Below, piece by piece: positions 2,258-19,736 of a DNA stretch of 19,788 bases. Under the pieces are notes generated by a model. That model was not told the origin of the DNA and did not search any database. It saw only the letters and a program-made list of their open reading frames with translations. Position 1 is the stretch's first letter, and each line of letters starts with the position of its first letter. The stretch comes from Deltaproteobacteria bacterium (GTDB lineage Bacteria > Desulfobacterota > Desulfobacteria > Desulfobacterales > SURF-15), in assembly GCA_024644775.1 (NCBI GenBank), contig JAHEHB010000043.1:1-19788 (forward strand). Reading direction: 5' to 3'. Both the position numbers and the translations under genes were made by a program.

Positions 2258-3592
2258 CTACATTCCCATATCTTTTTCTTCTTCGGTGATGCTTGCGTCA
2301 AGAATTCGAATCGCCTCATCAACTTCTTTTTTTTGAATAATCAACGGAGGGGCAAACTCAAGGGCCGGTCCCATAAACCGGGTTAGAAGACCTTTGTGCC
2401 TGGCTCGGTTGATAATGTTGTTTATCCGTTCCGTCGGATAAGGTGCTCGTGTATTTTTGTCGGTCGTAAAATCGATTGCGAGCCACAACCCGGTTCCCCT
2501 CACTTCCCCAATCGTTGGATGAGAGGATAGCTCCTGGAGTCCCTCCAAAAAATAAGCCCCCATCTTTGCCGAGTTTTCTACGAGATTTTCTCCCTCAAGA
2601 ATTTCAAGATTTCTCAGCCCGGCAGCGCAAGATACCGGATGGTTTCCATAGGTGTGAATATGCATAAATGTCTCAACCGGCTCGAGTACTTTATCACTGC
2701 ATCCGACGGCCCCCAGGGGAACGTATCCACTGGTGAGCCCTTTGGCCATCGTGAGGAGATCCGGTTGAATGTCAAAATGTTGAATTCCAAACATTTTGCC
2801 GGTTCTTCCAAATCCACAAATAACCTCATCGATGATGAGAAGAATACCGTATTTGTCACATATTTCCCGAATGATGGTCCAATATTCCTTGGGGGGCTTA
2901 TAGGCGCCGAACCCCTGCTGTATCGGTTCCCCGATAAACGCCGAGACAAGTTCCGGATCCTCAAATTCTATTGTTTGTTCAACCGCCCGTGCGCAAGCGA
3001 TATCACAATCCGGATAGGTTAGATTGTAAGGGCATCGGTAACAATAGGGAGATTGGGCGAAAACACCTCCAGGTGCAACCGGTTCCATCATTTGCCGCAT
3101 TGGCAATACCGTACCAAGGGCTCTTACCCCAATCCCATTTACACCGTGATACGCACCGACCCTTGAGATAATCTTATACCGTGCTTTATCTCCATTGTAG
3201 TAATGATAGTGCTTTGCAAGCTTCATGGCCGTTTCCACCGCTTCTGAACCATCACAATCAAAGATAAATCGATTGATTGGCGGCGGTGTAATCTCTGAGA
3301 GCCGTTCAGCAAGCTTTATGGCCGGTTCGTTTGCAAACATACAGGGGGTGTAATAGGAGAGCTCACAACACTGATCATATACCGCTTGCGCAATTTCCTT
3401 TCGGCCATAGCCCGCATGAACCGGCCGGGTTGCTCCAGCATTTAGATCGATATATCGGTTACCATCCCGATCATATACATAAACGCCTTCACCCTTTGAA
3501 ATGACCAAGATACCCTTTTTCAGTTCGCCTCTCGGCGTTCGATGGGGAATTAAGTGGGAATTTTCGTTCATCAGATTTCCATTACCGCTCAT
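2258..3592 (-). CDS. Class III PLP-dependent aminotransferase
   Basis: A 444-residue fold-type I aminotransferase of class III (omega-transaminase/ornithine aminotransferase group), cytoplasmic. Features seen: the N-terminal segment YVYDRDGNRYIDLNAG, the cofactor phosphate loop DGSEAVETAMKLA near 114-126, YHG at 148-150 where an aromatic residue stacks on PLP, the DEV motif with Asp255 that contacts the pyridine nitrogen, and the PLP lysine Lys284 in MAKGLTSGYVPLG. The length is normal. The start was placed at 3592 rather than at the longer frame from 3715, because AAGGAGG lies seven bases before this ATG. A Cys-rich insert (CYRCPYNLTYPDCDIAC, about 184-200) is unusual for the class. The substrate (an amine, beta-amino acid or taurine-like compound) cannot be decided. 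An interrupted MFS permease follows on the same strand. Confidence 0.9.
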   Translation of the reverse strand: MSGNGNLMNENSHLIPHRTPRGELKKGILVISKGEGVYVYDRDGNRYIDLNAGATRPVHAGYGRKEIAQAVYDQCCELSYYTPCMFANEPAIKLAERLSEITPPPINRFIFDCDGSEAVETAMKLAKHYHYYNGDKARYKIISRVGAYHGVNGIGVRALGTVLPMRQMMEPVAPGGVFAQSPYCYRCPYNLTYPDCDIACARAVEQTIEFEDPELVSAFIGEPIQQGFGAYKPPKEYWTIIREICDKYGILLIIDEVICGFGRTGKMFGIQHFDIQPDLLTMAKGLTSGYVPLGAVGCSDKVLEPVETFMHIHTYGNHPVSCAAGLRNLEILEGENLVENSAKMGAYFLEGLQELSSHPTIGEVRGTGLWLAIDFTTDKNTRAPYPTERINNIINRARHKGLLTRFMGPALEFAPPLIIQKKEVDEAIRILDASITEEEKDMGM

Positions 3593-3929
3593 TTCAATCC
3601 TCCTTGTAAAAAAGTTTTCGAAAGCAGATTTTTGCTTGATATAAAGGTGCCTAATCCAATATCTGAAATGAGAGTTGAACACAACACCTAATGATTTCTG
3701 GCCGAAGAATGACAATTTCTGAAAATTCCAAGGCGTTCCGAATCTCTAAAATACAAGATCGATAATAATGATAAGGACGGTTTAAAAGGGGTTGACAAAC
3801 CTACAAAATAAGGTACAAAAATTTATTTCAGATCCGCTTTCACATTACGTCCTTTTGCCTCTTTAATCGTAAAGAAAATATTTCTACAAGTAACCACGAA
3901 ACAAATCAAAGAAAGGAGGGTTTTAGGCG
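3593..3929. other. Divergent intergenic region
   Basis: This 337-base stretch separates the minus-strand aminotransferase from the plus-strand TPR gene. It holds the aminotransferase ribosome-binding site at its left edge, a plausible plus-strand promoter near 3792-3819 and the AGGAGG at 3914-3919 for the TPR gene. No convincing minus-strand promoter or operator palindrome was seen, and no RNA gene. Confidence 0.5.
3792..3819 (+). promoter_or_regulatory. Candidate sigma70 promoter for the TPR gene
   Basis: A perfect -35 hexamer TTGACA at 3792-3797, then 16 bases, then TACAAA at 3814-3819 as a moderate -10 match (4 of 6). It lies about 110 bases before the TPR gene, in an AT-rich stretch. Confidence 0.45.
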
Positions 3930-7261: not shown

Positions 7262-9046
7262 ATGCGTGAAAACACCCAAATCCAAAAGGACATCCGTACA
7301 ATCCATGAGATATTCCACGCCTTTGATCTTGCCGGTTCTAAAGCACAAATTTTCGATTATCTGGCGTGCTTTGAACAAAAAACATCTTCTTTTCTAACGT
7401 CTCCCGCTATATCCGCTATCATCAAATGGCACAAAAATCTTTTTTTACAAAAGGTGCTGCTGTTTCCCCGTGCGGAGCAGCTGTTGGACGAGGCCATCGA
7501 TATATTAGAAGATCAAACCGAATCGTTATACAATCGTTGGAAAATAAAAATCTACATATCCTTGGGGCATGTCCACAATGCGCAGTGGAATTATTTAGAC
7601 GCAGAATCCTACCTGACCGATGCGCTGAACCTGGCACAGTCAGAACCGTCATTATCCAAGTACTTGGGAGAAATATACGCGCTGCTCAGCAGAGTTAGCC
7701 TATCAATTGGTAACCATCACCAATCAAAACAATATGCGGCCTTAGAAAAAGAAGTTTGCTATCAAAACCACATTGCAAATCCGTCCGATCAGCCACTTGC
7801 CAACATCTATGCATACGCACTGGTCAATTATAGTCGGATCAATCGTCTCGTCGGCTTAGTCGATCATCAGATATTGGAAAATCTAAATGAGGCCGTTCGC
7901 ATTTTCAGTCACCACAACAACGAAAAAGGCCGGATATTGTCCCGCTTAGAGAAGGCAGAGTTTCAATACTTGATTAATCAGGTGGATCATGCGCTGGAAA
8001 CAGCCCTGGCTTTGGAGCCGTTCTTTAAGAAAAAAGAGATGCACACCGAAAGCATGCAGGCCGGATTATTGGCAGCAAAAATCTATCGAAAAATTCTTGA
8101 TTATGGAGAGGCGGAGACAAAGCTAAGCGACCTGCTATCTATGGCCAAGGAGCATCGACTAAAATCTGATCCTCTCATGGCCGACGTACTGTATGAAATG
8201 GGTGCGGTGTATTACGCCATAAATGAGGAACCTAAAGCGTATGAAAATTTCAAAGAGTCCGCCAAATTGGGGATGGTGCTTGGTATCAGGGATATCATCA
8301 TACGCGCTTTTAATGCCGTACGCGCCATTGATAGATATAAAGCCACAGAACTGTTGACGTCCGATCTGGTATATGACGATTCCGTATTTGTAAAAAACCG
8401 CCTGGGCAGACACGTCAGTCCATTTAAAACGTCGCGGGCAAGAACCAAACTATTCGCCTCAACCTTATTTGTCGATATAGTCGATTTCAGCAGATTGATG
8501 AAAAAATCTGATGAGAGTCTCACCGTAAAAATGGTCGATGAGCTAATCGATCGAATGTATCTCCTTATCTATCAGTACAATGGCTATATCGATAAGTTTC
8601 TTGGAGATGGCTTTATGGCGATATTTGAACATGGACACATTCTCTCTTCCGATAAGGCCTTTCGTGCAATTAATTCCGGGATGGACATCCACCGGGCGCT
8701 GAAGCATAAAAATCGTAAGCTAAAGAAGATATACGGGGTTGATAAAAATATTCGTGTCCGTATCGGCTTGAGTACGGGTGAAATCTATGCCATTTTATTG
8801 GGGAATTATATCAAAACAGAGTTTACATATTTGGGAAATTCGGTCAATTTAGCCTCAAAACTTGAAAGCCATGCGGCCAATGAATGTATGCTAATTGATG
8901 AAGAAACCTATCGATTGGTCAATAGCCGAATCATTTCGGAACCCCAAAAAATCATCATTCCCGGCCTCGGAGAAACAACAACCCACAGAGTGCTGAGACT
9001 TGCCAGGATGCATGATCGTTCGGTTCCAGGTAAGGCGCCCCATTAA
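7262..9046 (+). CDS. TPR-class III adenylate/guanylate cyclase
   Basis: A 594-residue, apparently cytoplasmic protein. Residues about 1-380 are all-helical with TPR-like pairs (for example LGHVHNAQWNYLDAESYLTDAL and MGAVYYAINEEPKAYENF) and are probably a sensory or protein-binding region. A class III cyclase homology domain covers about 395-575. Metal-binding Asp405 is in FVDIVDFS and Asp449 in KFLGDG. Lys445 and Thr522 occupy the purine-specifying positions, a pair usual for bacterial adenylate cyclases. Asn529 is the transition-state Asn. The transition-state Arg, normally in VNxAxR, is Lys533 here (VNLASKLE). The likely reaction is ATP to cyclic AMP. No ribosome-binding site is seen before the ATG. 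No cAMP-binding regulator is in the window. Confidence 0.85.
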   Translation: MRENTQIQKDIRTIHEIFHAFDLAGSKAQIFDYLACFEQKTSSFLTSPAISAIIKWHKNLFLQKVLLFPRAEQLLDEAIDILEDQTESLYNRWKIKIYISLGHVHNAQWNYLDAESYLTDALNLAQSEPSLSKYLGEIYALLSRVSLSIGNHHQSKQYAALEKEVCYQNHIANPSDQPLANIYAYALVNYSRINRLVGLVDHQILENLNEAVRIFSHHNNEKGRILSRLEKAEFQYLINQVDHALETALALEPFFKKKEMHTESMQAGLLAAKIYRKILDYGEAETKLSDLLSMAKEHRLKSDPLMADVLYEMGAVYYAINEEPKAYENFKESAKLGMVLGIRDIIIRAFNAVRAIDRYKATELLTSDLVYDDSVFVKNRLGRHVSPFKTSRARTKLFASTLFVDIVDFSRLMKKSDESLTVKMVDELIDRMYLLIYQYNGYIDKFLGDGFMAIFEHGHILSSDKAFRAINSGMDIHRALKHKNRKLKKIYGVDKNIRVRIGLSTGEIYAILLGNYIKTEFTYLGNSVNLASKLESHAANECMLIDEETYRLVNSRIISEPQKIIIPGLGETTTHRVLRLARMHDRSVPGKAPH

Positions 9047-9430: not shown

Positions 9431-9459
9431 TTGACAAAACGGCTCAAATTCTGTATTTT
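9431..9459 (+). promoter_or_regulatory. Sigma70-type promoter of the hdr operon
   Basis: A perfect TTGACA at 9431-9436, an optimal 17-base spacer, and TATTTT at 9454-9459 (5 of 6 to TATAAT). Transcription would start near 9466, giving a leader of about 87 bases before hdrC. No other promoter of comparable quality was seen in front of the operon. Confidence 0.65.
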
Positions 9460-9552: not shown

Positions 9553-10113
9553 ATGAAAGCTACGAAAACCTGTGGAATAGATTACCATTTTTATAAAGAG
9601 ATATCCAGGCAGCCAAAAGGTGAAGGAATTACCAAATGTTTGAGTTGCGGGACGTGCGCCTCCACCTGCCAGGTATTTTCGGTGAATCCGGCGTATAACC
9701 CCCGAAAGTTGATTCAAAAAGCGGTGCTGGGCTTAAAAGACGAGGTACTGAAATCGGAAATGATCTGGATCTGTGCCCGATGTAACAGTTGCCTGGAAAA
9801 ATGTCCGAAAGGTATTAAGCCCGGTGACATAATAATGGCATTACGGCATATTGCGCTAAAGGAAGGGGTTATTAATTTCAAAGGTGTAAGGCATTCTTTA
9901 TATTTCAAAAAGAGCATCTTAAAAACAGGTAAAATCAACGAGATGATCCTACCGCTTCATACATTGCGGTTTGGTATCGTCTCTCAGATCCCCCAATCAA
10001 TAAGAATGCTGTTTAAAGGAAAGCTTCCGCCTTTGCTGCCCAGAAGAATAAAACGAATGAACGACGTAAAAAAACTGAGTCGGATGATTGAACATAGAAG
10101 AGAAAAACAATGA
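9553..10113 (+). CDS. hdrC: Heterodisulfide reductase subunit C-like ferredoxin protein
   Basis: A 186-residue cytoplasmic iron-sulfur protein. Two complete [4Fe-4S] motifs are visible: Cys29, 32, 35 and 39 (CLSCGTCASTC) and Cys74, 77, 80 and 84 (CARCNSCLEKCP). The second is followed by GIKPGDIIMALRHIA, typical of HdrC. HdrC carries electrons between the flavin of HdrA and the active-site clusters of HdrB. The last about 90 residues form a basic helical tail. Start: AAGGCGG lies 5 bases before the ATG. The gene overlaps hdrB by four bases (ATGA), so the two are translationally coupled. It is the first gene of a six-gene run. Confidence 0.92.
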   Translation: MKATKTCGIDYHFYKEISRQPKGEGITKCLSCGTCASTCQVFSVNPAYNPRKLIQKAVLGLKDEVLKSEMIWICARCNSCLEKCPKGIKPGDIIMALRHIALKEGVINFKGVRHSLYFKKSILKTGKINEMILPLHTLRFGIVSQIPQSIRMLFKGKLPPLLPRRIKRMNDVKKLSRMIEHRREKQ

Positions 10114-10976
10114 AATACTCCTTGTATCCAGGATGTGCCGGTGAAGCGACTGCCAAAGAAGCCTGGTTGGCAACCAGCAGTGTGTTGGATTTTCTGGGAT
10201 TGGACGTTACCGAAAACAATGCATATTCCTGTTGCGGTGCCGGCGTTGTTGAGGAAGAAGACCCCGATTTCGAATACACACTTAACGCCAGGAACTTCGC
10301 TTTGGCAGAAAAGGAAGAAAGGGATATCGTCTTAATCTGTAATACCTGCCTGCTGACAATGCTGAATACAAAAAAAACCTTAGCGGAAAATCAAACGCTT
10401 TATCAACAGGTAAACGCGGATCTGAAGCAAGTGGGGCTCGAATACAAGGGTGAGGTTCGGATAAAACACTTTCTGTGGCTCCTGCGTGACGACATCGGGC
10501 TTGACAGGCTGAAAGAATTGATTAAGGTACCTATCAGGAATGTAAAAATCGCACCCTTTTACGGTTGTCATATCGTCAGGCCCTCAGATATCATAGCCGA
10601 TGAGAGAGAACCCGATTTTTTAAACAAACTTATCAGCGTCTGCGGGGCTCAAGAGGCAGACTACGAGGATAAGTACAACTGCTGTGGTTTTCATATATTG
10701 CTAAACGATCAGGCCACTTCATTGAAAATGACCGGAAAATGCCTGTCGAATGCAGTAAAGGCGAAGGCCGACATGCTGGTTACCCCCTGCACCCTGTGTC
10801 ACCTTAGCCTTGACGGTTATCAAAAACCCGCAAATAAATCGAACCGGTCAGACATTCCCGTCCTGCATCTTGCTCAAATGTTAGGACTGGCGTTGGGGAT
10901 TAAACCGCGGAAATTGGGCTTAGACAAGAATATGATTGGTGTCAGTAAGCACCTATCAGCATTGATGAATTCGTAA
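10110..10976 (+). CDS. hdrB: Heterodisulfide reductase subunit B-like CCG protein
   Basis: A 288-residue protein with two CCG domains. The first uses Cys9 (YPGC), Cys41-Cys42 (CCG), Cys77 and Cys80 (CNTC). The second uses Cys153 (YGC), Cys191-Cys192 (CCG), Cys227 and Cys230 (CTLC). In methanogen HdrB these hold two noncubane [4Fe-4S] clusters that cleave the CoM-CoB disulfide. A bacterium without that substrate must use another disulfide or pass electrons on to a partner. All expected cysteines are present, so the clusters should form. It overlaps hdrC by four bases. It is separated from hdrA by about 110 bases containing a decayed palindromic repeat. Confidence 0.92.
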   Translation: MKYSLYPGCAGEATAKEAWLATSSVLDFLGLDVTENNAYSCCGAGVVEEEDPDFEYTLNARNFALAEKEERDIVLICNTCLLTMLNTKKTLAENQTLYQQVNADLKQVGLEYKGEVRIKHFLWLLRDDIGLDRLKELIKVPIRNVKIAPFYGCHIVRPSDIIADEREPDFLNKLISVCGAQEADYEDKYNCCGFHILLNDQATSLKMTGKCLSNAVKAKADMLVTPCTLCHLSLDGYQKPANKSNRSDIPVLHLAQMLGLALGIKPRKLGLDKNMIGVSKHLSALMNS

Positions 10977-11014
10977 TAAGCAGAATTCATCAAGTATTGA
11001 AGGAATAAAAAAAC

Positions 11015-11070
11015 TTGTCGCAAAGACACAAAGATATTATTTTTTATGACTTTTTTGTGCCCTGGTGGCG
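11015..11070. repeat. Decayed CACAAAG palindromic repeat between hdrB and hdrA
   Basis: The left arm TTGTCGCAAAGACACAAAG (11015-11033) faces a degenerate right arm, CTTTTTTGTGCCCTGGTGG (from 11050). It is the same layout as the cleaner copy at 15014-15085. The right arm covers the GTG at 11065, which argues against that GTG as the start of hdrA. Confidence 0.5.
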
Positions 11071-11085
11071 GAAATCATAGGTAAA

Positions 11086-14000
11086 ATGGGGAATAATAAA
11101 AAAATTGGCGTCTTTCTTTGTCGATGTGGAGGCAACATATCCCAAGTGGTCGATCTTGATCGCCTAAAGGAATATGCCATAGAGCAGCCGGACGTTGAAT
11201 TTGCCGATTATCAGTCTTTTACCTGTTCCAGTGAAGGACAAGCGGTTATTCAAAACGCCATAAAAGAACAGGACTTGGACTCGGTGGTCATCGGTTGCTG
11301 TACTCCCAAACAATACGAAGAGCTGTATAGGGAATGTATCAAGGAAACCGGACTAAACCCCTATCTACTTGAAATGATCAACCTGCGTGAACAGTGTTCC
11401 TACCCACATCACAATGAACCGGAAAAAGCCACCCAAAAAGGGATAAGACTGCTTGAAGGTGCGGTTGATAAAGTTCGTCTTTTGAAACCCTTAAAAATAG
11501 AAAAGGTAAAAGTCAACAAGGATGTCGCCGTCATCGGCGGTGGAATTGCCGGTGTTCACGCCTCCCTTTCTCTGGCAAAGATGGGGTACAAGGTTTATCT
11601 TATCGAGAAAGAAACCACCATCGGCGGTAATATGGCCAAATTGGTCAAGACCTTTCCCACCGACGACTGTGCCATGTGCACCCTATCACCCAAGCTCGAC
11701 GAAGTGGCTAAAAATAAAAATATCAGCCTGATGACCTACTCGGAAGTGCAGGATGTGGAGAAGATACCCGAAGGCTTGCGACTAAAGGTTTTAAGAAAAG
11801 CGCGTTATGTGGATGAAGAAAAGTGCACCGGATGCGGCAAATGTTCCGAGGTTTGTCCCGTAGATGTCTATAATGAATACGATCAGGGATTATTCTCGAC
11901 AAAAAAGATTGCTTACAAACATTTTGCCGCGGCCGTGCCGAATTTATATACCATACAAAAAAGGCAAATGGCACCCTGCAAGGCCGCCTGTCCGGTGAAT
12001 CAGGCTGCCCAGGGGTACTTGGCGCTGGTGGCGGAAAAACGGTATAAAGAAGCCTTCAACGTCGTCTGTCGGGATAATCCTCTGCCATCCGTCTGCGGTC
12101 GGGTGTGCGACCATATGTGCGAAACTGAGTGTACAAGGAATGATATCGATGAACCCATAGCGATCCGGGGGGTTAAACGATTTCTGGCCGATTATGCCAG
12201 AGAACATAACATCAGGCCGGCGGTCCTCCCAATTATAAATCAAACGGATATAAACCAGACCGACAATCAGACAGACGCAAACAAAAAGCACATTGCCATC
12301 GTCGGTGGAGGACCGGCCGGTTTGAGCTGCGCCCATTCGCTTCGCCACCTCGGCTATGATGTTTCAATTTTTGAGGCAATGCCGGAACTCGGCGGAATGC
12401 TGCGGTATGGCATTCCCGAGTACCGGTTACCCAAAGAGATTCTGAACTGGGAGATTCAAGGTATTTTGGATCTCGGTATTCATGCCCAAACAAATACGAA
12501 ACTCGGGCAAGATATTGATCTCGAATCTCTTATATCCGGAAAATATGATGCGGTTTTTCTCGGAATAGGCGCTTGGAAAGACTATGCACTCGGAGTGGAT
12601 GGTGAAAACCTTACCGGCTGTTACACCGGAATCGATTTTCTCTCAAAAATCGGGCGCGGCGAATCCGTGCCCATCGGTCGCAGGTGTGCCGTTATCGGCG
12701 GCGGAAACACCGCCATCGATTGTGCGCGTACCCTGATCCGCCTGGGCGCTGAAGAGGTCTCCATCATCTACCGTAGAACCAAAGCGGAAATGCCTGCAAT
12801 CAAGCCTGAAATCGATGCGGCAGAACATGAAGGGGTAACATTTCATTTTTTGGCGGCACCGGCCGGGATGCTGGGTGATGCAGAAAATCGCATGACTCAC
12901 CTGGAATATATCAAGATGAAACTCGGCGAACCGGATGATAGCGGAAGACGGCGCCCGGTTCCCATTGAAGGCTCTGAAACACGCGTTGAACTGGATATGC
13001 TGATTACGGCGACCGGTCAGGGACCCGATTTAGGATTTATGGGAGATAGCGTCAAACTGAACGTCAATCGCAGAGGGCTAATAAAAACCGAAGAAAATAG
13101 CACGTCTACCGGGTTGGAAAAGGTTTTTGCCGGCGGGGACATAACGACCGGACCTTCTACCGTTATCGGATCCATTGCCAAAGGACAATTGGCCGCCCAA
13201 GAGATTGACTGTTATTTGAATCAAAAGACTTACCCGGGGAAAGCACAACCCTACCAGAGAATGGATTATAACCGGCAGGAAATCATTCAATCAAAAGAGG
13301 GGTTCTACGAATCAACTCCGAGAATTAAAATGCCCGAAATCCCTTTGCAGGAAAGGAATGATTTTACCGAGGTAGAAACCGGGTTCACCGAAGAGATGGC
13401 CATCGCCGAAGCCAAACGATGCCTCCAGTGCGGGGATTGTTCCGATTGCCGGGCGTGCGAAATCGCCTGTGAAGCCAATGCGGTGGATCACTTTCAAAAA
13501 GATAACATGGAGAGCATTGAGGTCGGGGCGGTGATAGTGGCCACGGGGTTTAAGGAGTTTGATCCCACCACCCTGCATTACGGTTATGGGAAATACCCGG
13601 ATGTCGTTACCCAGCTTCAATTCGCCAGAATGCTCGATCCGGTCGGCCCGACAAACGGTGAAATTCTAAAGGTCAGCAATAAAAAACCTGCCAAAAAAAT
13701 CGTTATGGTACAATGCGTGGGCTCTCGTGCCGCCGAACAAGGTATTGAGGGCGCGCATCGGTATTGTTCCAGGGTCTGCTGTATGGCTGCCTTAAAGCAT
13801 GCCGGGTTGGTAAAGAAATATTTTGATACGGATGCCGAGATATACATCTGCTACATCGATATCCGTGCCTTTGGCAAAGGTTATGAGGAATATTTTGAAG
13901 CGGTGAAGGGCATGGGAGTAAAATTTATCAGAGGATTACCCGGCAATATTATAGAAGATAAAGAGACCGGTAAACTCCTGGTAACGGTGGAGGACGCCAA

Positions 14001-14544
14001 TACCAGCGCACTGCTGGAAATCGAGGCCGATCTGGTGGTTCTTTCCAGCGCCACCGAAGCCGCCGAAAATTCCGATCTAATACGAAAACTCAATATTTCC
14101 AGAGATGAAAGCGGCTTTGTAAAGGAGTTTCATCAAAAGATACGGCCCACAGACACCATGGTAAAAAATATTTTTGTCTGCGGCGCCGCTCAAGGACCCA
14201 AGGATATACCCGACACCATCGCCCAGGCGGGCAGTGCGGCTTCCAGCGTCGTATCATACCTCGGTGACGGTTATGTTTGGTTAAACCCGATGATCGCGAC
14301 CTTCGATGCCTCTCTCTGCCGGGCCTGTGGTAGATGCGAGGAAGGATGTGAATTTGACGCTGTTCGGGTCGATGCGGCTCAACTCTGTGCCTGTGTGGAG
14401 CCCAGCATGTGCGAGGGCTGCGGCAAATGCGCAGTTTTGTGCCCCACCGGAGCCGCCAGTGTCCATTCAGGAACCGACGAACAGATAGGCGCCTTGATAG
14501 ATGGTTTAAAATTGGATAGACGGTTTAAAATTGGAGACCGGTAA
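11086..14544 (+). CDS. hdrA: HdrA with an embedded GltD/NfnL-like NAD(P)H module
   Basis: A 1152-residue flavoprotein, much longer than ordinary HdrA. Order: HdrA N-terminal domain (CRCG at 12-15); FAD site GGGIAG at 151-156; first ferredoxin motif Cys247, 250, 253 and 257. A complete GltD-like module follows from about 296 to 760: Cys298 and 302, Cys337, 341, 345 and 349 (CGRVC...CETEC), FAD motif GGGPAG at 407-412, NAD(P)H motif GGGNTA at 538-543, AGGD near 682-685. HdrA then resumes with Cys779-795 (CLQCGDC...CEIAC), VGAVIVATGF and YCSRVCCM, and ends with two more ferredoxin motifs (Cys1078, 1081, 1084 and 1088; Cys1109, 1112, 1115 and 1119). HdrA holds the bifurcating FAD; the inserted module should exchange electrons with NAD(P)H. 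Start: the ATG at 11086 is preferred to a GTG at 11065 that lies inside a repeat. It abuts mvhD. Confidence 0.92.
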   Translation: MGNNKKIGVFLCRCGGNISQVVDLDRLKEYAIEQPDVEFADYQSFTCSSEGQAVIQNAIKEQDLDSVVIGCCTPKQYEELYRECIKETGLNPYLLEMINLREQCSYPHHNEPEKATQKGIRLLEGAVDKVRLLKPLKIEKVKVNKDVAVIGGGIAGVHASLSLAKMGYKVYLIEKETTIGGNMAKLVKTFPTDDCAMCTLSPKLDEVAKNKNISLMTYSEVQDVEKIPEGLRLKVLRKARYVDEEKCTGCGKCSEVCPVDVYNEYDQGLFSTKKIAYKHFAAAVPNLYTIQKRQMAPCKAACPVNQAAQGYLALVAEKRYKEAFNVVCRDNPLPSVCGRVCDHMCETECTRNDIDEPIAIRGVKRFLADYAREHNIRPAVLPIINQTDINQTDNQTDANKKHIAIVGGGPAGLSCAHSLRHLGYDVSIFEAMPELGGMLRYGIPEYRLPKEILNWEIQGILDLGIHAQTNTKLGQDIDLESLISGKYDAVFLGIGAWKDYALGVDGENLTGCYTGIDFLSKIGRGESVPIGRRCAVIGGGNTAIDCARTLIRLGAEEVSIIYRRTKAEMPAIKPEIDAAEHEGVTFHFLAAPAGMLGDAENRMTHLEYIKMKLGEPDDSGRRRPVPIEGSETRVELDMLITATGQGPDLGFMGDSVKLNVNRRGLIKTEENSTSTGLEKVFAGGDITTGPSTVIGSIAKGQLAAQEIDCYLNQKTYPGKAQPYQRMDYNRQEIIQSKEGFYESTPRIKMPEIPLQERNDFTEVETGFTEEMAIAEAKRCLQCGDCSDCRACEIACEANAVDHFQKDNMESIEVGAVIVATGFKEFDPTTLHYGYGKYPDVVTQLQFARMLDPVGPTNGEILKVSNKKPAKKIVMVQCVGSRAAEQGIEGAHRYCSRVCCMAALKHAGLVKKYFDTDAEIYICYIDIRAFGKGYEEYFEAVKGMGVKFIRGLPGNIIEDKETGKLLVTVEDANTSALLEIEADLVVLSSATEAAENSDLIRKLNISRDESGFVKEFHQKIRPTDTMVKNIFVCGAAQGPKDIPDTIAQAGSAASSVVSYLGDGYVWLNPMIATFDASLCRACGRCEEGCEFDAVRVDAAQLCACVEPSMCEGCGKCAVLCPTGAASVHSGTDEQIGALIDGLKLDRRFKIGDR
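14503..14535 (+). repeat. 19-base direct duplication at the 3' end of hdrA
   Basis: GGTTTAAAATTGGA occurs at 14503-14516 and again at 14522-14535, offset by 19 bases and therefore read in different frames. The second copy supplies the GGAG that serves as ribosome-binding site for mvhD, which starts at 14545. Confidence 0.6.
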
Positions 14545-15009
14545 ATGAGCTTTGAACCCGATGTTCTGGGCTTTGCCTGCAACTGGTGCGGTTATGCAGG
14601 TGCCGATCAGGCTGGCATGAACAAAATGCAATATCCGGCAAATATCAAACTGCTGAGAGTGATGTGCCTCGGCCGGGTGGATACACCCCTGGTGCTGGAA
14701 GCCTTTGAGAAAGGATTCGATGGTGTCATGCTCGTTGGCTGCCATATCGGCGACTGCCACTATGTATCCGGCAATAAAAATGCCGTACTTGTTGTGGATC
14801 AGCTAAAAAAAATCCTGTACTACCTGGGTATCGAACCCGAACGATTGAGGATCGAAGAAGTCTCGGGTGGCGAAGGTCCTTTATTCGTAAAAGTCGTTAC
14901 GGAATTTGTCGAGGAATTAAAAAAACTGGGACCAAGCCCCCTGACAAGGAACAACATCGCGGCTTCCCGCGATAGTATAGACGAAAGTAAGGTAAAAGCA
15001 TCAGGCTAA
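14545..15009 (+). CDS. mvhD: MvhD-type [2Fe-2S] adaptor protein
   Basis: A 154-residue member of the methyl-viologen-reducing hydrogenase delta subunit family. The five conserved cysteines are all present: Cys12 and Cys15 (CNWCGYAGAD), Cys41 (MCLGRVD), Cys66 and Cys71 (GCHIGDCHY). MvhD docks on HdrA and passes electrons to it from hydrogenase, formate dehydrogenase or another donor. Its ATG follows the hdrA stop codon directly, with GGAG upstream, so it is cotranslated with hdrA. No hydrogenase or formate dehydrogenase gene is present here, so its donor is either the downstream dehydrogenase pair or is encoded elsewhere. The length is normal for the family. Confidence 0.93.
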   Translation: MSFEPDVLGFACNWCGYAGADQAGMNKMQYPANIKLLRVMCLGRVDTPLVLEAFEKGFDGVMLVGCHIGDCHYVSGNKNAVLVVDQLKKILYYLGIEPERLRIEEVSGGEGPLFVKVVTEFVEELKKLGPSPLTRNNIAASRDSIDESKVKASG

Positions 15010-15013
15010 TATT

Positions 15014-15085
15014 TTTGCCACAAAGACACCAAGTTGATATTACTATTGCAAACCATTTTTTAACCCTTCGTGCCTTTGTGGTAAA
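15014..15085. repeat. CACAAAG/CTTTGTG palindromic intergenic repeat
   Basis: The left arm TTTGCCACAAAGACACCAAG (15014-15033) is complementary, with three mismatches, to the right arm CTTCGTGCCTTTGTGGTAAA (15066-15085) around a 32-base AT-rich loop. It fills most of the 103-base gap between mvhD and the HdrD-like gene. It could fold in the mRNA and affect expression of the two downstream genes. Confidence 0.65.
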
Positions 15086-15112
15086 CTTATTATTACGAAA
15101 CAGGTTTTTTTC

Positions 15113-16228
15113 ATGGACAAATCAAACACCAGCGAACTTGAATGTATACAGTGCAACAAGTGCCAGCTCAGTTGCCCTTTGAATCGGGTCGACCCCACCT
15201 ATTCTCCCAGGGGTAATACATTGCAATTACTGTTAGAGGGGGATGAAAAATTCACAGAGGACAAAGATCTTTTCCGGTGTCTTACGTGTTTTCAATGTAA
15301 AGAAGTTTGCCCGTCAAGTATCAAGTACATCGAAGCCGTCAGGCAGGCCCGCAAGAAAGCCCGAGAAAAGGGACAAATCGATGAGTGCAAACATGGAACG
15401 ATTCTACGTACCATTCAACAATTTCAGGCGGATTTGCAGGTTCCCCAAAACCGGTTGGTAAATTTAGATACGGATACGTTTGTCGACTCCGGTGAGATAC
15501 TATATTTTGTCGGTTGCCTGCCGGTATTCGATTTTGTTTTCCCTCATACCACTAGCATAACGACGGCTAAAAATACGCTAAAGATTTTAAATGGTGCCGG
15601 AATCAAACCGGTTGTTTCCAATAGTGAAAAGTGCTGTGGTTATGACCTTTTATGGAACGGAGAGACCGGCGTTTTTCGGAAGCTGGCAGAATCAAACCTT
15701 AAGTTGTTTAAGGAACTGGGAATAAAAAAAATCATCACCAGTTGTGCTGAATGTTTTGCGACGTTAAGAGACGAATATCCTGCAATAGAAAACGTAGACT
15801 GGGAAGTGCAGCATATAACGGAGTTTATAGCGGAAGCACTGGGACAAGGAGACCTGAAGCTAACCACATCGGTGGAGGAAACGGTGACCTATCACGATCC
15901 CTGCAGACTCGGCAGGGTCGGCCACAATTATGATGCACCCCGACATATTCTGAAAAATATCGCCGGACTCGACTTTAAAGAGATGGAGTTTATCCGGGAA
16001 AACTCACGCTGTTGCGGAGTCGGTGGTTTCTCAAATTGTGACTCATACATCAAGTTTTTGCAGTCCGATCGCCTGGAAGAGGCGGCAGAAACCGGCGCAA
16101 AACACGTCATAACAGCCTGTCCCAAATGCCGGATCCATTTTAACTGTTATCTTGACGGCAAACCCATCAGGGATCTGCCGCCGTTAAATATCACCGATAT
16201 CACAGAGATCGTAGCTAAAGCCTTGTAA
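15113..16228 (+). CDS. HdrD/GlcF-like Fe-S oxidoreductase with two CCG domains
   Basis: A 371-residue protein that equals an HdrC fused to an HdrB. The N-terminal ferredoxin part has Cys11, 14, 17 and 21 (CIQCNKCQLSC) and Cys56, 59, 62 and 66 (CLTCFQCKEVC). The first CCG domain has Cys135, Cys174-175, Cys211 and Cys214. The second has Cys264, Cys300-301, Cys336 and Cys339. This layout is shared by HdrD, GlcF and the iron-sulfur subunits of lactate and glycerol-3-phosphate dehydrogenases. Directly upstream of a GlcD-like flavoprotein, it is most likely that enzyme's electron-accepting subunit, passing electrons toward MvhD/HdrA. It follows mvhD after a palindromic repeat. The ribosome-binding site is weak (CAGG). 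Confidence 0.88.
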   Translation: MDKSNTSELECIQCNKCQLSCPLNRVDPTYSPRGNTLQLLLEGDEKFTEDKDLFRCLTCFQCKEVCPSSIKYIEAVRQARKKAREKGQIDECKHGTILRTIQQFQADLQVPQNRLVNLDTDTFVDSGEILYFVGCLPVFDFVFPHTTSITTAKNTLKILNGAGIKPVVSNSEKCCGYDLLWNGETGVFRKLAESNLKLFKELGIKKIITSCAECFATLRDEYPAIENVDWEVQHITEFIAEALGQGDLKLTTSVEETVTYHDPCRLGRVGHNYDAPRHILKNIAGLDFKEMEFIRENSRCCGVGGFSNCDSYIKFLQSDRLEEAAETGAKHVITACPKCRIHFNCYLDGKPIRDLPPLNITDITEIVAKAL

Positions 16229-16265
16229 ATTCAATTTATTTACAGTAAAAACAAACCCTGAAAAA

Positions 16266-17759
16266 ATGACCAGCAAAAAACAATTCCAAGAGTATTGCCG
16301 CGAAGAAAACATCTTATTCAGCGAAAACCTGGACCAGCGCTACAAGAGTGACGCTTCTTTCTTGACACTGGGCAAACCCTTTGCCCTTGTGTTTCCCAGA
16401 AATGAGTCGGAGGTAAAAAAGGTAATTTCTTTCGCCGCTCAACACAAACTGGCGATTACGCCCCGTGCCATGGGATCCAGTACAGCCGGTGCAGCACTGG
16501 CTGATGCACACGCCATTCTGATGGTGGTCGATCGGTTGGGGGTCTGTGACCAATGGGGTATGCGCCAAAGAAAACCGAAGATTAAAATTGTTGACAGGGA
16601 TTTACAGCCCACCGAAATTAAGGAAAATGATGATAGAGAGTTGTATGCCATTGTCGGAAGTGGCCTCTCCACTGATGAACTGGATCGATATCTAAAAAAA
16701 ATAAACTACCACACAGCGGTCGTTCCTTCCTCCGGCTGGTCGAGTATTGCCGGTAATTTTGCAACAAACGCCGGGGGAAACGGCACACCCAAATACGGAA
16801 CCTTCAAGGATATCGTCGGTTACCTGAAAATGGTGGTAGTCGATGACCAAGGTGAAAAAACCGTTGAAATTACTGACAAAAATGAAATTGAAATATTGGG
16901 CGGATTTCAGGGCACCTTGGGGGTAATTTTGGAAATCGGCGTGCTAATCGTCCCGATTCTGGATTCCTCCGATACGGAAAACGTCGTATTGTCGTACGAA
17001 TCGGATGATATCGCGGAAATCGGAGAAAAAATGGGGACCCTAATCGAAGATACCCAGAAAAACTGTTCCTTTTTAAACGCGGAATTTTTGTTTATCGATC
17101 CCCTGCTGTTACAAAAGGATGATGTCTTATGGGAAAATAAGGAGCTGGCCGATTTCCTTAAAGTCGAAGAACAGAACAGAAAGATGCTGCTATTGTACCA
17201 GGGTGAAAAAAACGGTATGCATAATCTGGAAAGCATTGTCAAAAAATATAACGGCGTAATCTATCGAAATATTTCCGTCGAAAATATGAACATCATGCTG
17301 GGGGTCAGAAAGGCAGCCACCGGAAAATCAACGGCAAGAGTGGCGATTCCGGGATTTGAGGATATCTATGTCACCAAGCCTTCAAAGTTGGGAATCGTTC
17401 TTAAGAAAATATTTGAGCTATGTGAAGGAAAACTCCCCGGAAGACCCATTGGGCATCAGTATATCGATGGAATCGTCATCCACTACAGGCCTCAAGCGCT
17501 GGTTACCAAAGAAGAGTATTTGAAAGCCTGGCAGTTAACCCAGGAATTGAATGAAGCGATTGTCAATAACGAAAAGTATTTTACCCTCAAGAGAAAAGAA
17601 CACGGCCTTGGTCTTGAGCTGTTTAAATTGTCCGACACACAGAGAAAGGCGGAGTTAACCATGCTCAAAAAGAAATACGACCCCCAGAATATTTTTAATC
17701 CCCACCTTTTTTCGAGTGAACCAAAAATCAATTTTATCGGAGCAGAGCTTAAAATCTAA
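16266..17759 (+). CDS. GlcD-like FAD-binding dehydrogenase
   Basis: A 497-residue flavoprotein of the vanillyl-alcohol oxidase/PCMH family, the group of glycolate oxidase GlcD and D-lactate dehydrogenase. The FAD domain (about 35-230) contains FALVFPRNESEVKKVI, RAMGSSTAGAAL, VGSGLSTDEL, GWSSIAGNFATNAGGNG and the GTLGVI segment. The FAD-oxidase C-terminal domain ends EHGLGLELF...KKKYDPQNIFNP. Unlike most relatives, a charged insertion of about 30 residues (about 88-122) splits the first half of the FAD domain, and the expected GHxGDGNxH motif reads GHQYIDGIVIH. A 2-hydroxyacid substrate is likely from the family, but the changed motif warns against naming it. It begins 37 bases after the HdrD-like gene; no clear ribosome-binding site is seen. 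It is the last gene of the operon. Confidence 0.85.
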   Translation: MTSKKQFQEYCREENILFSENLDQRYKSDASFLTLGKPFALVFPRNESEVKKVISFAAQHKLAITPRAMGSSTAGAALADAHAILMVVDRLGVCDQWGMRQRKPKIKIVDRDLQPTEIKENDDRELYAIVGSGLSTDELDRYLKKINYHTAVVPSSGWSSIAGNFATNAGGNGTPKYGTFKDIVGYLKMVVVDDQGEKTVEITDKNEIEILGGFQGTLGVILEIGVLIVPILDSSDTENVVLSYESDDIAEIGEKMGTLIEDTQKNCSFLNAEFLFIDPLLLQKDDVLWENKELADFLKVEEQNRKMLLLYQGEKNGMHNLESIVKKYNGVIYRNISVENMNIMLGVRKAATGKSTARVAIPGFEDIYVTKPSKLGIVLKKIFELCEGKLPGRPIGHQYIDGIVIHYRPQALVTKEEYLKAWQLTQELNEAIVNNEKYFTLKRKEHGLGLELFKLSDTQRKAELTMLKKKYDPQNIFNPHLFSSEPKINFIGAELKI

Positions 17760-17829: not shown

Positions 17830-17891
17830 TAACTTTCTTGAGCGAATTGTTAATATCAGAATAACCAAACGACAGCTTCTGGAGATTGGCG

Positions 17892-19736
17892 GTGGCAAAA
17901 TCCACTCAGAAAAGAGGAAAAAAAGACCCCTCTGCCGGGAAGCTGCGCATCGCCGATCATTGGAATGCGATCAGCATCATTGCCAGCTCTCAAGCCAATC
18001 CGCTGAAAGCAGTGGCTGAGTTTGTGGAAAACAGTATTGATGCACGGGCCCAAAAAATTGCCATCACGCGGGGAAAGAAGAAGGGTGAATTTTATCTCAA
18101 GATCAGCGACGAGGGTGAAGGCATTCCGAGGAATGAAAGCGGATTGCCCGATTTTCGGTACGTAGCGACGCACATTTGTGATTCCATAAAGCGACAATTA
18201 AAGGCCAAGGGCGCAGAAGGAGTCCAGGGCGAATTCGGCATTGGCCTCCTTAGTTTTTGGACGGTTGGCCAGAACCTGAGTATGGCCTGTTGCGGAGCCG
18301 ATGGAAACAAATACGAAATGATCATGGCCAAAAATTCACCGGATTTTTCGGTTCTGAAGAAACGTGTATTGATTCCCTTCGAAGGAACAGACCTGATGAT
18401 CTATCCCCTATTGCCCGGGTTACGATCCTTGACCGGTGAGAAGATCCAGCGCTATCTTGCGTCCGAACTCAGAGACCGAATCAAGGAATCGGAGGTAACG
18501 ATCACAGTTGTGGATCGAACAAGCCGAACCGAGCATATCGTGGTTCCGCGACAGTTCACCGGGCGGCTGCTTCATGACCTGCGGCCTGATGAGACCGCAC
18601 CGGGTGATATCTACCTGGAACTGTATCTCAGCGATCCCGGCTCCGCCAATGAGGTTGGATTGTATCGGGGGGGAACACGGGTCCTATCGTCGGTAAGTGA
18701 ACTCGATCATTTTCAAAAAGAACCGTGGAATGCAGGGTATTTGCAGGGTATTGTCGACGCTCCGTTCCTGAATCTGACACCGGGGACCCGCCAGGGGATT
18801 ATTCGTGATGACCGGTTTGAAGCGTTCTGCCGGGCAATGGAACCGGTTGAAGAGCGGCTTCAGCAGATAATCGACGAACAGCGCAAGGCGGAAGAAGAAC
18901 GGTCCAGTCGCCAGATTCTGCGTACGGTTCAGCGCGCCCTGAGGGAAGCGTTTTTGCGTCTTCCCCAGGAGGAATATGACTGGTTCGAGATTCATGCCCG
19001 GAAAACTCCAAAAAAAAGAAACCCTCTTTATCCTGCAGGGTCGGTTATGGATGCTGCCCGGGATACGAATGGCCGGGCGGGTGAAACGCCCGAAAAAGCG
19101 CTTGAGCCTGAGGGTGATGACCGGGAGCAAAGAAAATTCTTTGAGTACGCCGGCCCGCTGTTCAGTGCACTGATCTCCCCAAAGTCGAGTGTGGTCCCTG
19201 TTTGCAAACAAAAGAAATACCACGCGGTATGCCGGGATCGCTCAAGACGAACCCTCTGGGAAAACCTAGACTATCACTGGGAAATTTCCGAGGGTGAAGG
19301 TCAACTCGAGAGCAACGATGGGGATGCTGTGATCTTTAAGGCCCCCCCGGAGCCATGCCTCACCACACTGAGGCTCATCGTCCGTCAGGGCATTTCGGAA
19401 CGTAGGGATGAGGCGTTGATAACCGTCACCGAATCACTAATGGATCAACCGACAGGGGCCGGAGGGGTGCGTAAAGGGCTCCCCGGGTATACGTATCGCA
19501 GGGCTCCGGGGGAGATGTGGCGTTCAAGATTCGATGTGGACAAAAACGTGATCCTGATCAACAACGGGCACCGAGACTTTGTGTACGCCGGCAAGCAGAA
19601 GACCCGCAAGCTTCGCTATATTTGTCGCCTGTTCTGTAAGGAATTGGTTCGTCACAATTTTCCCGGTATGCAGACCGATGACCTCCTTGAGCGAATGATC
19701 GAACTGTCTTTGTACACCGAAGAGCATCTGAAATAA
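17892..19736 (+). CDS. GHKL-type (Hsp90/MutL/MORC-like) ATPase of unknown role
   Basis: A 614-residue protein, apparently cytoplasmic. The N-terminal GHKL ATP-binding fold has its motifs intact: N-box EFVENSIDA (Glu43, Asn47, Asp50), DEGEGIP (Asp73, Gly75, Gly77) and GEFGIGLLSFW (from 113). A transducer-like region extends to about 310 and a charged helical segment rich in Glu, Arg and Gln follows (about 315-360). Residues about 415-510 resemble a small beta-sandwich (WEISEGEG, VIFKAPPEP, LRLIVRQG). The C-terminal about 80 residues contain VILINNGHRDF and a helical end. There is no kinase dimerisation domain, and no membrane segment. Start: the GTG at 17892 has GGAG seven bases upstream; the in-frame TTG at 17886 is too close to it. 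Role unknown; DNA handling, chaperone or phage defence are all possible. Confidence 0.8.
   Translation: MAKSTQKRGKKDPSAGKLRIADHWNAISIIASSQANPLKAVAEFVENSIDARAQKIAITRGKKKGEFYLKISDEGEGIPRNESGLPDFRYVATHICDSIKRQLKAKGAEGVQGEFGIGLLSFWTVGQNLSMACCGADGNKYEMIMAKNSPDFSVLKKRVLIPFEGTDLMIYPLLPGLRSLTGEKIQRYLASELRDRIKESEVTITVVDRTSRTEHIVVPRQFTGRLLHDLRPDETAPGDIYLELYLSDPGSANEVGLYRGGTRVLSSVSELDHFQKEPWNAGYLQGIVDAPFLNLTPGTRQGIIRDDRFEAFCRAMEPVEERLQQIIDEQRKAEEERSSRQILRTVQRALREAFLRLPQEEYDWFEIHARKTPKKRNPLYPAGSVMDAARDTNGRAGETPEKALEPEGDDREQRKFFEYAGPLFSALISPKSSVVPVCKQKKYHAVCRDRSRRTLWENLDYHWEISEGEGQLESNDGDAVIFKAPPEPCLTTLRLIVRQGISERRDEALITVTESLMDQPTGAGGVRKGLPGYTYRRAPGEMWRSRFDVDKNVILINNGHRDFVYAGKQKTRKLRYICRLFCKELVRHNFPGMQTDDLLERMIELSLYTEEHLK

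Follow-up and report, generated by a model that had tools for sequence, protein, structure and literature searches.

We report here an operon of six genes, hdrC, hdrB, a type III hdrA, mvhD, an hdrD-like gene and a glcD-like gene (Table 1), in a 19,788-nucleotide stretch of a Deltaproteobacteria bacterium (contig JAHEHB010000043.1 of assembly GCA_024644775.1), the whole of which is called the window below. The gene order recurs in distant hosts and the six genes are in all probability one functional unit. The substrate of the GlcD/HdrD pair is very likely a 2-hydroxyacid, for which gene context makes D-2-hydroxyglutarate the best candidate. Judged from the sequences, the product may be an Hdr-coupled confurcating D-2-hydroxyacid dehydrogenase acting on D-2-hydroxyglutarate, a reading to which we give somewhat less than an even chance. 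More tentatively still, it could be a horizontally moving Hdr-based confurcating D-2-hydroxyglutarate:NAD(P)+ oxidoreductase that replaces, in oxygen-poor habitats, the respiratory D-2-hydroxyglutarate dehydrogenase (D2HGDH) linked to electron-transferring flavoprotein (ETF), and whose nucleotide port is exchangeable (NADP, NAD or none).

The six open reading frames (ORFs) were assigned to families with Pfam and NCBIfam. The HdrA is made of two HdrA halves flanking a Fer4_20/Pyr_redox_2 (GltD) segment, the window MvhD belongs to the FlpD/MvhD family, the hdrD product is HdrD/GlpC/TfrB-like with Fer4 and two CCG domains, and the glcD product exhibits FAD_binding_4 with a weak GlcD match. A preliminary description of this DNA, made from its letters, had named six same-strand genes of these kinds and had stated that the expected cluster-binding cysteines were present; both statements held, the second after a motif and alignment check of the window proteins. 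HdrC contains two CxxCxxCxxxC motifs, HdrB and HdrD each contain two complete C-x(n)-CC-x(n)-CxxC motifs, and MvhD contains five cysteines, those of HdrB and MvhD being presumed ligands by their motifs. In HdrA, the cysteine set of the inserted ferredoxin domain is split (254/257/260/264 and 792/795/798/802), and further sets are located at the N-terminus and, C-terminally, at 1085-1095 and 1116-1126. All the cluster ligand cysteines of HdrA, HdrB, HdrC and MvhD of the electron-bifurcating HdrABC-MvhD core are present in the window. Counted over the copies of the module that were compared (other loci carry L numbers, introduced below), the invariant motif cysteines are 10 in HdrB (8 copies), 21 in HdrD (10 copies) and 8 in HdrC (6 copies, the L003 and L077 rows, which are HdrD N-termini, being left out). 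Exceptions at ligand-type positions were found in HdrA, where Cys78 is replaced by Ala in L007 and Cys1119 by Phe in L004. Among the 14 window proteins scanned with Pfam, no hydrogenase (MvhA and MvhG included), formate dehydrogenase or Flox family was found, as already stated in the preliminary description, nor any ETF family. The intergenic gaps of the window operon measure 88, 103 and 37 bp, and a promoter and terminator scan, with site counts at chance level, showed no plus-strand terminator-like site in them. The listed ORFs of the module are packed more tightly in L002 and L007, where neighbours overlap or are separated by no more than 30 bp.

Table 1 Features of the window related to the six-gene module.
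Feature	Position	Strand	Remarks
hdrC	9553..10113	+	186 aa; two 4Fe-4S motifs; Fer4 and HdrC families
hdrB	10110..10976	+	288 aa; CCG and HdrB families; both CCG (non-cubane cluster) motifs complete; 4-bp overlap with hdrC
hdrA, type III	11065..14544	+	1159 aa; GTG start as listed, alternative ATG at 11086
GltD insert of HdrA	11965..13230	+	residues ~301-722; NAD(P)H-dehydrogenase-like; between two 4Fe-4S motifs of the inserted ferredoxin domain
Second Rossmann motif GGGNTA...YRR	12697..12777	+	HdrA residues 545-571; NADP(H)-type
mvhD (FlpD)	14545..15009	+	154 aa; five Cys invariant in 10 copies
hdrD-like	15113..16228	+	371 aa; two 4Fe-4S and two CCG motifs; presumably the redox partner of the GlcD-like flavoprotein
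GlcD-like FAD dehydrogenase	16266..17759	+	497 aa; own subfamily; putative metal triad H397/H406/E445, R348, T352
Promoter-like TTGACA-17-TATTTT	9431..9459	+	upstream of hdrC; count of such sites in the region at chance level

Of 8000 proteins scored, 1269 matched the subfamily of the GlcD-like protein at an E-value of 0.001 or lower, and the named relatives among the best 120, which were listed, came from Thermodesulfobacteriota (84%) and Desulfobacterales (78%). A scan of 84,980 species genomes, made with an alignment of 25 subfamily members, led to 25 loci: eight with full or long relatives at 37% identity or more (L001 to L008), one with an 82% fragment of 65 residues (L009) and 16 remote ones. 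The eight are a lower bound, because only two peptide patterns were employed and G332 was missed by them. The module genes were found upstream of glcD, in the same order, in 8/8 loci as far as the contig extends. All six genes stand in order in L001, L002, L005, L006 and L007; L003 and L004, whose contigs are cut, have hdrA to glcD, and L008 and the later-found L077 have hdrB to glcD. The hosts include a Deltaproteobacteria, a Bacteriovoracaceae (L002), a Pseudomonadales metagenome-assembled genome (MAG; G007, locus L007) and an archaeal-type group, whose four loci (L005, L006, L008 and L077) are close kin and were counted as one context; the genes of L006 and L008, which lie in GC-rich DNA, were located by tblastn and reading frames. 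The pairwise identities of HdrA, MvhD, HdrD and GlcD correlate with r values of 0.94-0.99 (45 pairs). The HdrC distance correlations (0.44-0.71) cannot be relied on, as they still include L003 and L077, whose rows are HdrD N-termini. In a tree of the HdrA core, one branch (100/100) separated eight module HdrAs from 20 other type III HdrAs; this tree was midpoint-rooted, and the program warned that long branches meet at the module/non-module split. It is the order kept and the co-divergence of the genes in distant lineages that argue for one functional unit, and the same two observations reject a chance adjacency of the six genes. The possibility raised in the preliminary description that hdrD and glcD would not be conserved beside hdrA-mvhD was thereby dismissed. 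Its picture of a single functional unit is borne out by order and co-divergence. The full composition is not general: the archaeal-type copies are without GltD and two of the four are without hdrC.

The GlcD-like protein has a VAO-type fold over its whole length and is nearest to the LDHD/LctD/GlcD/D2HGDH group of D-2-hydroxyacid dehydrogenases. The putative metal residues H397, H406 and E445, corresponding to the His, His, Glu of D2HGDHs, are invariant in A1; H397 and E445 align with H366 and E412 of A2, with the second His offset by two residues. A Thr is present four residues after the Arg (R+4) in 10/10 module copies, as in human D2HGDH, in contrast with the Phe of GlcDs and the Tyr of an LDH-D-like protein of G007. 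The earlier view that GlcD/HdrD is the substrate end and acts on a hydroxyacid is strengthened by neighbouring serA, larA, Ldh_2 and L-2-hydroxyglutarate-oxidase-like genes in the other hosts.

In G007, the module is flanked by rpiA and serA, all of them on one strand, and serA was recognised by the NCBIfam model NF008759 with 649.6 bits (cut-off 404). In Pseudomonas stutzeri, D-2-hydroxyglutarate is made by SerA and reoxidised by D2HGDH via ETF (PMC9504171; this and the other papers given by PMC number are represented here by excerpts of their text). From a list of 96 relatives of G007, the first ten were examined, G552 being left out, and a D2HGDH-type gene was found in 10/10, with 54-70% identity among them and one a contig-edge fragment. 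It lies between serA and rpiA in three (L067, L072 and L075), abuts serA or rpiA in five (L068, L070, L071, L073 and L076) and is 2.1 kb from rpiA in L074 (G712); neither rpiA nor serA was seen in L069 (G523). The best PDB matches of this gene are 3pm9 and human D2HGDH, with 319 and 298 bits, compared to 205 bits or less for glycolate and lactate enzymes. G007 showed two FAD-oxidase_C proteins, both at most 32% identical to the D2HGDHs of the relatives: a GlcD, with 56-61% identity to the GlcDs of the relatives, and the LDH-D-like protein, with at most 33% to all others compared. Full-length matches to D2HGDH stayed at or below 32% in 10 module-bearing genomes, of which G009 has just a fragment, and partial matches of less than 200 residues reached 40% in G006 and G008. 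As D2HGDH stands beside serA/rpiA in most of the relatives and was not found in G007, and as D-2-hydroxyglutarate is a by-product of SerA, the module looks like an in-place substitute. When L007:2688-12736 is set against L067 and L070-L076, the module occupies the D2HGDH place at the rpiA-serA locus; other genes of this locus (up2009, up947, a hydrolase, and the pgk and tkt sides) are recognisable in several relatives.

In L002, larA, Ldh_2 and then the six module genes follow each other on one strand. The specificity sites of this LarA are Y,F and H,T in an alignment with malate racemase Mar2, which has Y,K and H,K. This corresponds to the 2-hydroxyglutarate racemase (HGR) pattern Y,F,H/Q,T, the malate racemases having H/Q,K at the last two sites (PMC11770544), and gives context support for hydroxyglutarate. 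The sites of the lactate pattern are F,F,W,E/Q, unlike those of the L002 LarA. In the four archaeal-type loci, a LarA homologue and an L-2-hydroxyglutarate-oxidase-like gene adjoin the module. The latter scored 210-213 bits in L008 and L077, under the cut-off of 299, and those of L005 and L006 are 76-82% identical to that of L008; its best solved relative is 8w75, named FI05204p, which we take to be the fly L-2-hydroxyglutarate dehydrogenase. An Ldh_2 gene, 50-53% identical to that of L002, is present in 3/4 of these loci. Their LarA homologues, each oriented divergently to the module, carry Y,F at the first two sites and do not carry H/Q,T at the last two, in a gapped alignment in which L006 is masked.

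The window HdrA is of type III, with GltD between the clusters of its inserted ferredoxin domain (residues 301-722). In such HdrAs, GltD was proposed to bring in NAD(P)H and possibly to block ferredoxin (PMC12054007); this reading and the nucleotide-binding motif agree with the NAD(P)H end placed at GltD in the preliminary description. The window and L001 have GGGNTA...YRR as this motif, L002, L003, L004 and L007 have GGGNVA...CLE, and YRR was found in 20/20 non-module type III HdrAs. The published GxGxxG NAD motif was absent from the six module copies having that part of GltD, which carry GGGNTA or GGGNVA. An Arg pair favours NADP(H) and a Glu favours NAD(H). Given YRR in some copies and CLE in others, the cofactor choice seems variable within the module, and we infer a port that would be NADP(H)-linked in the window lineage and NAD(H)-linked in some relatives. 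The identity of the GltD insert is 41-46% to non-module type III HdrAs, 47% to L002 and 38% to L007, and the window HdrA core, unlike the insert, is far closer to module HdrAs; the insert may be either faster-evolving or exchanged.

We propose that the six gene products would form one soluble complex, in which the GlcD-like FAD protein would convert a D-2-hydroxyacid into the 2-oxoacid, D-2-hydroxyglutarate being the likeliest substrate, and pass the electrons to its Fe-S partner HdrD. From HdrD, the electrons would reach the HdrA flavin through HdrCB and/or MvhD, and the GltD insert would serve as pyridine-nucleotide port. HdrA would confurcate the hydroxyacid electrons with low-potential (ferredoxin) electrons to NAD(P)H, or work in the reverse direction, and where SerA makes D-2-hydroxyglutarate the complex would recycle that by-product. 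In redox terms, 2-hydroxyglutarate is expected to behave as lactate/pyruvate does. The lactate/pyruvate couple is too positive for NAD(P)+ reduction (PMC12051018). Since the potential of a hydroxyacid/oxoacid couple is too high for NAD(P)+ to be reduced by it alone, confurcation with ferredoxin electrons would be the most likely role of HdrA. With the hydroxyacid as the high, NAD(P)H as the middle and ferredoxin as the low couple, the system would fit a confurcating flavin as in Ldh-EtfAB.

Several observations weigh against this proposal, its weak points being the access of ferredoxin, the port of HdrD and the copies without hdrC or GltD. Ferredoxin service by HdrA could be questionable, as GltD splits the two clusters of the ferredoxin-facing domain (PMC12054007). 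The archaeal-type HdrAs of L005, L006, L008 and L077 are without GltD, and hdrC, which stands between larA and hdrB in L005 and L006, has neither space nor sequence there in L008 (5348-5497) and L077 (15139-15445), so that it is not universal in the module. As to the substrate, the GlcD-like protein is only ~22% identical to Pseudomonadales D2HGDHs over 432 columns, its profile score for D2HGDH is tied with that for GlcD and its top fold matches are LDHD and LctD; fold and profile scores favour D-2-hydroxyglutarate over neither lactate nor glycolate. G007, where no D2HGDH gene was found, is one MAG and possibly incomplete, and the best NCBIfam model of the L002 LarA is malate racemase LarAH6, below cut-off. 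The neighbours of the module in the window are uninformative on the substrate: those shared with L001, the nearest relative, are an adenylate-cyclase gene and two further upstream genes, and the substrate in this lineage is thus deduced by homology, the window GlcD being 82% identical to that of L001, 67% to L002 and 45% to L007.

The same confurcating complex could act on D-lactate or D-malate instead, which we consider rather unlikely. Besides the lead of LDHD and LctD among the fold matches, the LarA and Ldh_2 families are classically lactate/malate-acting, the L002 larA is nearest to malate racemases and the L002 Ldh_2 to malate dehydrogenase 1v9n, and the Pseudomonas D2HGDHs oxidise D-malate too (PMC9504171). 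However, the Y,F,H,T sites of the L002 LarA fit neither the malate nor the lactate pattern, G007 keeps its LDH-D-like protein while no D2HGDH was found there, and the archaeal-type loci carry the L-2-hydroxyglutarate-oxidase-like gene. The direction of electron flow could also differ: the hydroxyacid electrons would enter via MvhD and be bifurcated, one pair going down to NADP+ via GltD, in the stead of ferredoxin, and the other up to a disulfide at HdrB. The retention of both complete CCG motifs in HdrB is consistent with this, as is the adjacency of mvhD, hdrD and glcD. Other Hdr clusters likewise keep MvhD beside donor genes. Examples are those with FdhBA and MetVF (PMC5736913), and the occupation of the ferredoxin port by GltD (PMC12054007) points the same way. 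Bifurcation of this kind is nevertheless improbable in our view, for reasons of potential. The hydroxyacid couple lies at about -0.17 to -0.19 V and that of NADP at -0.32 V or lower, so that the disulfide would have to be near 0 V, and we know of no fitting disulfide common to sulfate reducers, Pseudomonadales and Thermoplasmata. Finally, the operon could encode two separate soluble enzymes, HdrABC-MvhD and a YdiJ-like HdrD-GlcD, with nothing but a small carrier in common, in which case the hydroxyacid electrons would not be bifurcated at a flavin. The E. coli YdiJ is a fused GlcD-GlpC-type D2HGDH, whose deletion in strain MG1655 leads to accumulation of D-2-hydroxyglutarate (PMC9504171), and HdrD/GlcD and HdrABC/MvhD were treated separately in Korarchaeia and Methanomethylicia (PMC10667645), but the parts are co-linear and co-diverge in distant hosts, which makes two enzymes quite improbable.

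The module is rare and patchily distributed. At E 1e-80, the GlcD subfamily was found in 1/241 genomes of the class of G001, 3/200 of the class of G006, 1/244 of the order of G007 and 1/206 of its family, and among relatives in 1/96 (G001), 1/97 (G007), 2/89 (G003) and 1/97 (G002), these sets overlapping and each including its centre genome. In ocean metagenomes, the GlcD clusters P0050 and P0065 comprise 49 and 21 contigs, and P0050 is identical over 494 residues to the L007 protein. In the class of G001, which is titled Deltaproteobacteria and was labelled Myxococcota by the tree program, type III HdrA is common: full-length matches, counted as rows that begin no later than residue 14 and end no earlier than 1132, occurred in 61/147 genomes, G001 included, and the composite HdrA was rejected as the novelty for this reason. 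The search for the six-gene order in the near group, suggested in the preliminary description, gave little, with the GlcD family in the above 1/241 genomes and the composite HdrA common. No GlcD family member was found in the 20 fetched non-module type III HdrA loci, for which 6-17 kb each were covered (L149 reaches just 0.5 kb past mvhD, and L136 is without mvhD). In many genomes of the same class (e.g. G079:C290 and G086:C38), dozens of rows showed HdrA-like frames of ~1,480-1,530 codons with one in-frame TGA, possibly selenocysteine. In L009:3-6056, labelled Planctomycetota, the 82% GlcD C-terminal fragment is followed by integrase-core and DDE transposase genes, an arrangement that hints at mobility or at a mis-binned contig. 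The label or bin of L008, Actinomycetota, is suspect because its module genes compared are 67-92% identical to archaeal copies. A second, more distant HdrD-like gene was found after glcD in L005:11403-12494, L006:11567-12631 and L077:9048-7951.

The other window genes code for PEP-CTERM (49-795), HTH, class III aminotransferase (2258-3715, minus strand), TPR, transglycosylase, cyclase and MutL-like ATPase proteins. The TPR and adenylate/guanylate cyclase protein encoded upstream of hdrC (7262-9046) is 73% identical in L001, at the same place, and was not found in L002-L009. Downstream of the module, a TTG-started protein of 616 aa (17886-19736) has a MutL/HSP90-type ATPase domain (HATPase_c_3) with weak likeness to MutL and BbrUII-type restriction enzymes, and was not found in L001-L009.

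Compared to known systems, the window HdrA core resembles, in both halves and in its cluster cysteines, that of the HdrABC-MvhAGD and Fdh-Hdr complexes of methanogens (PDB 5odc, 8rvu, 9sfi and 7bkb), and HdrC, HdrB and MvhD are of the same families; the window HdrA differs by its GltD insert, and HdrD-GlcD replaces the hydrogenase or formate dehydrogenase. The position of GltD in the ferredoxin-facing domain is that of type III HdrA in PMC12054007, where nine archaeal sequences have GxGxxG and not the GxGxxA and YRR of the window. The HdrABC-MvhD-MetVF complex of Moorella (PMC5736913) is similar in joining an Hdr core to a dehydrogenase replacing hydrogenase, with NADH as partner and proposed middle couple, but it has MetVF, methylene-tetrahydrofolate as substrate and two fused HdrA domains (PMC9012536). 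LctBCD (Ldh-EtfAB, PDB 7qh2) uses EtfAB where the module has Hdr, and no EtfAB partner was found among the 14 window proteins scanned. The ETF-linked D2HGDH of Pseudomonas and YdiJ (PMC9504171, PMC10025160) share with the module the H/H/E metal residues, the Arg and a T/S at R+4, and YdiJ, a GlcD-GlpC fusion, has the same domain pair as HdrD-GlcD; in contrast to the module, D2HGDHs are without an Hdr partner and the Pseudomonas enzyme feeds ETF. An HdrD-GlcD pair was also described in Thermoproteota, where it is Fpo-linked and lactate was suggested, with no single operon with HdrABC-MvhD in the excerpts of that paper (PMC10667645). HdrABC cores, type III HdrA, HdrD/GlcD pairs and D2HGDHs are thus already known separately, and no description of the six-gene set or of an Hdr-linked D2HGDH was found in the CC-licensed PMC literature searched. 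The comparative genomics of sulfate reducers by Pereira in 2011 reportedly may describe parts of the set. Within these searches, the part that appears new is the union in one conserved operon together with the D-2-hydroxyglutarate assignment, and the module is best filed as an Hdr-based complex and not as a member of D2HGDH or LctBCD.

For HdrABC-MvhD without hydrogenase, the partner is often not known, for example in Korarchaeia (PMC10667645). The module supplies such a core with a partner and a testable substrate, and would be the Hdr-based counterpart of the Ldh-Etf complex. It offers a possible route for the reoxidation of D-2-hydroxyglutarate without ETF and quinone, an idea that the swap at the serA-rpiA locus makes directly testable. 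If true, serine synthesis, through its SerA by-product, and hydroxyglutarate turnover would run without the quinone pool.

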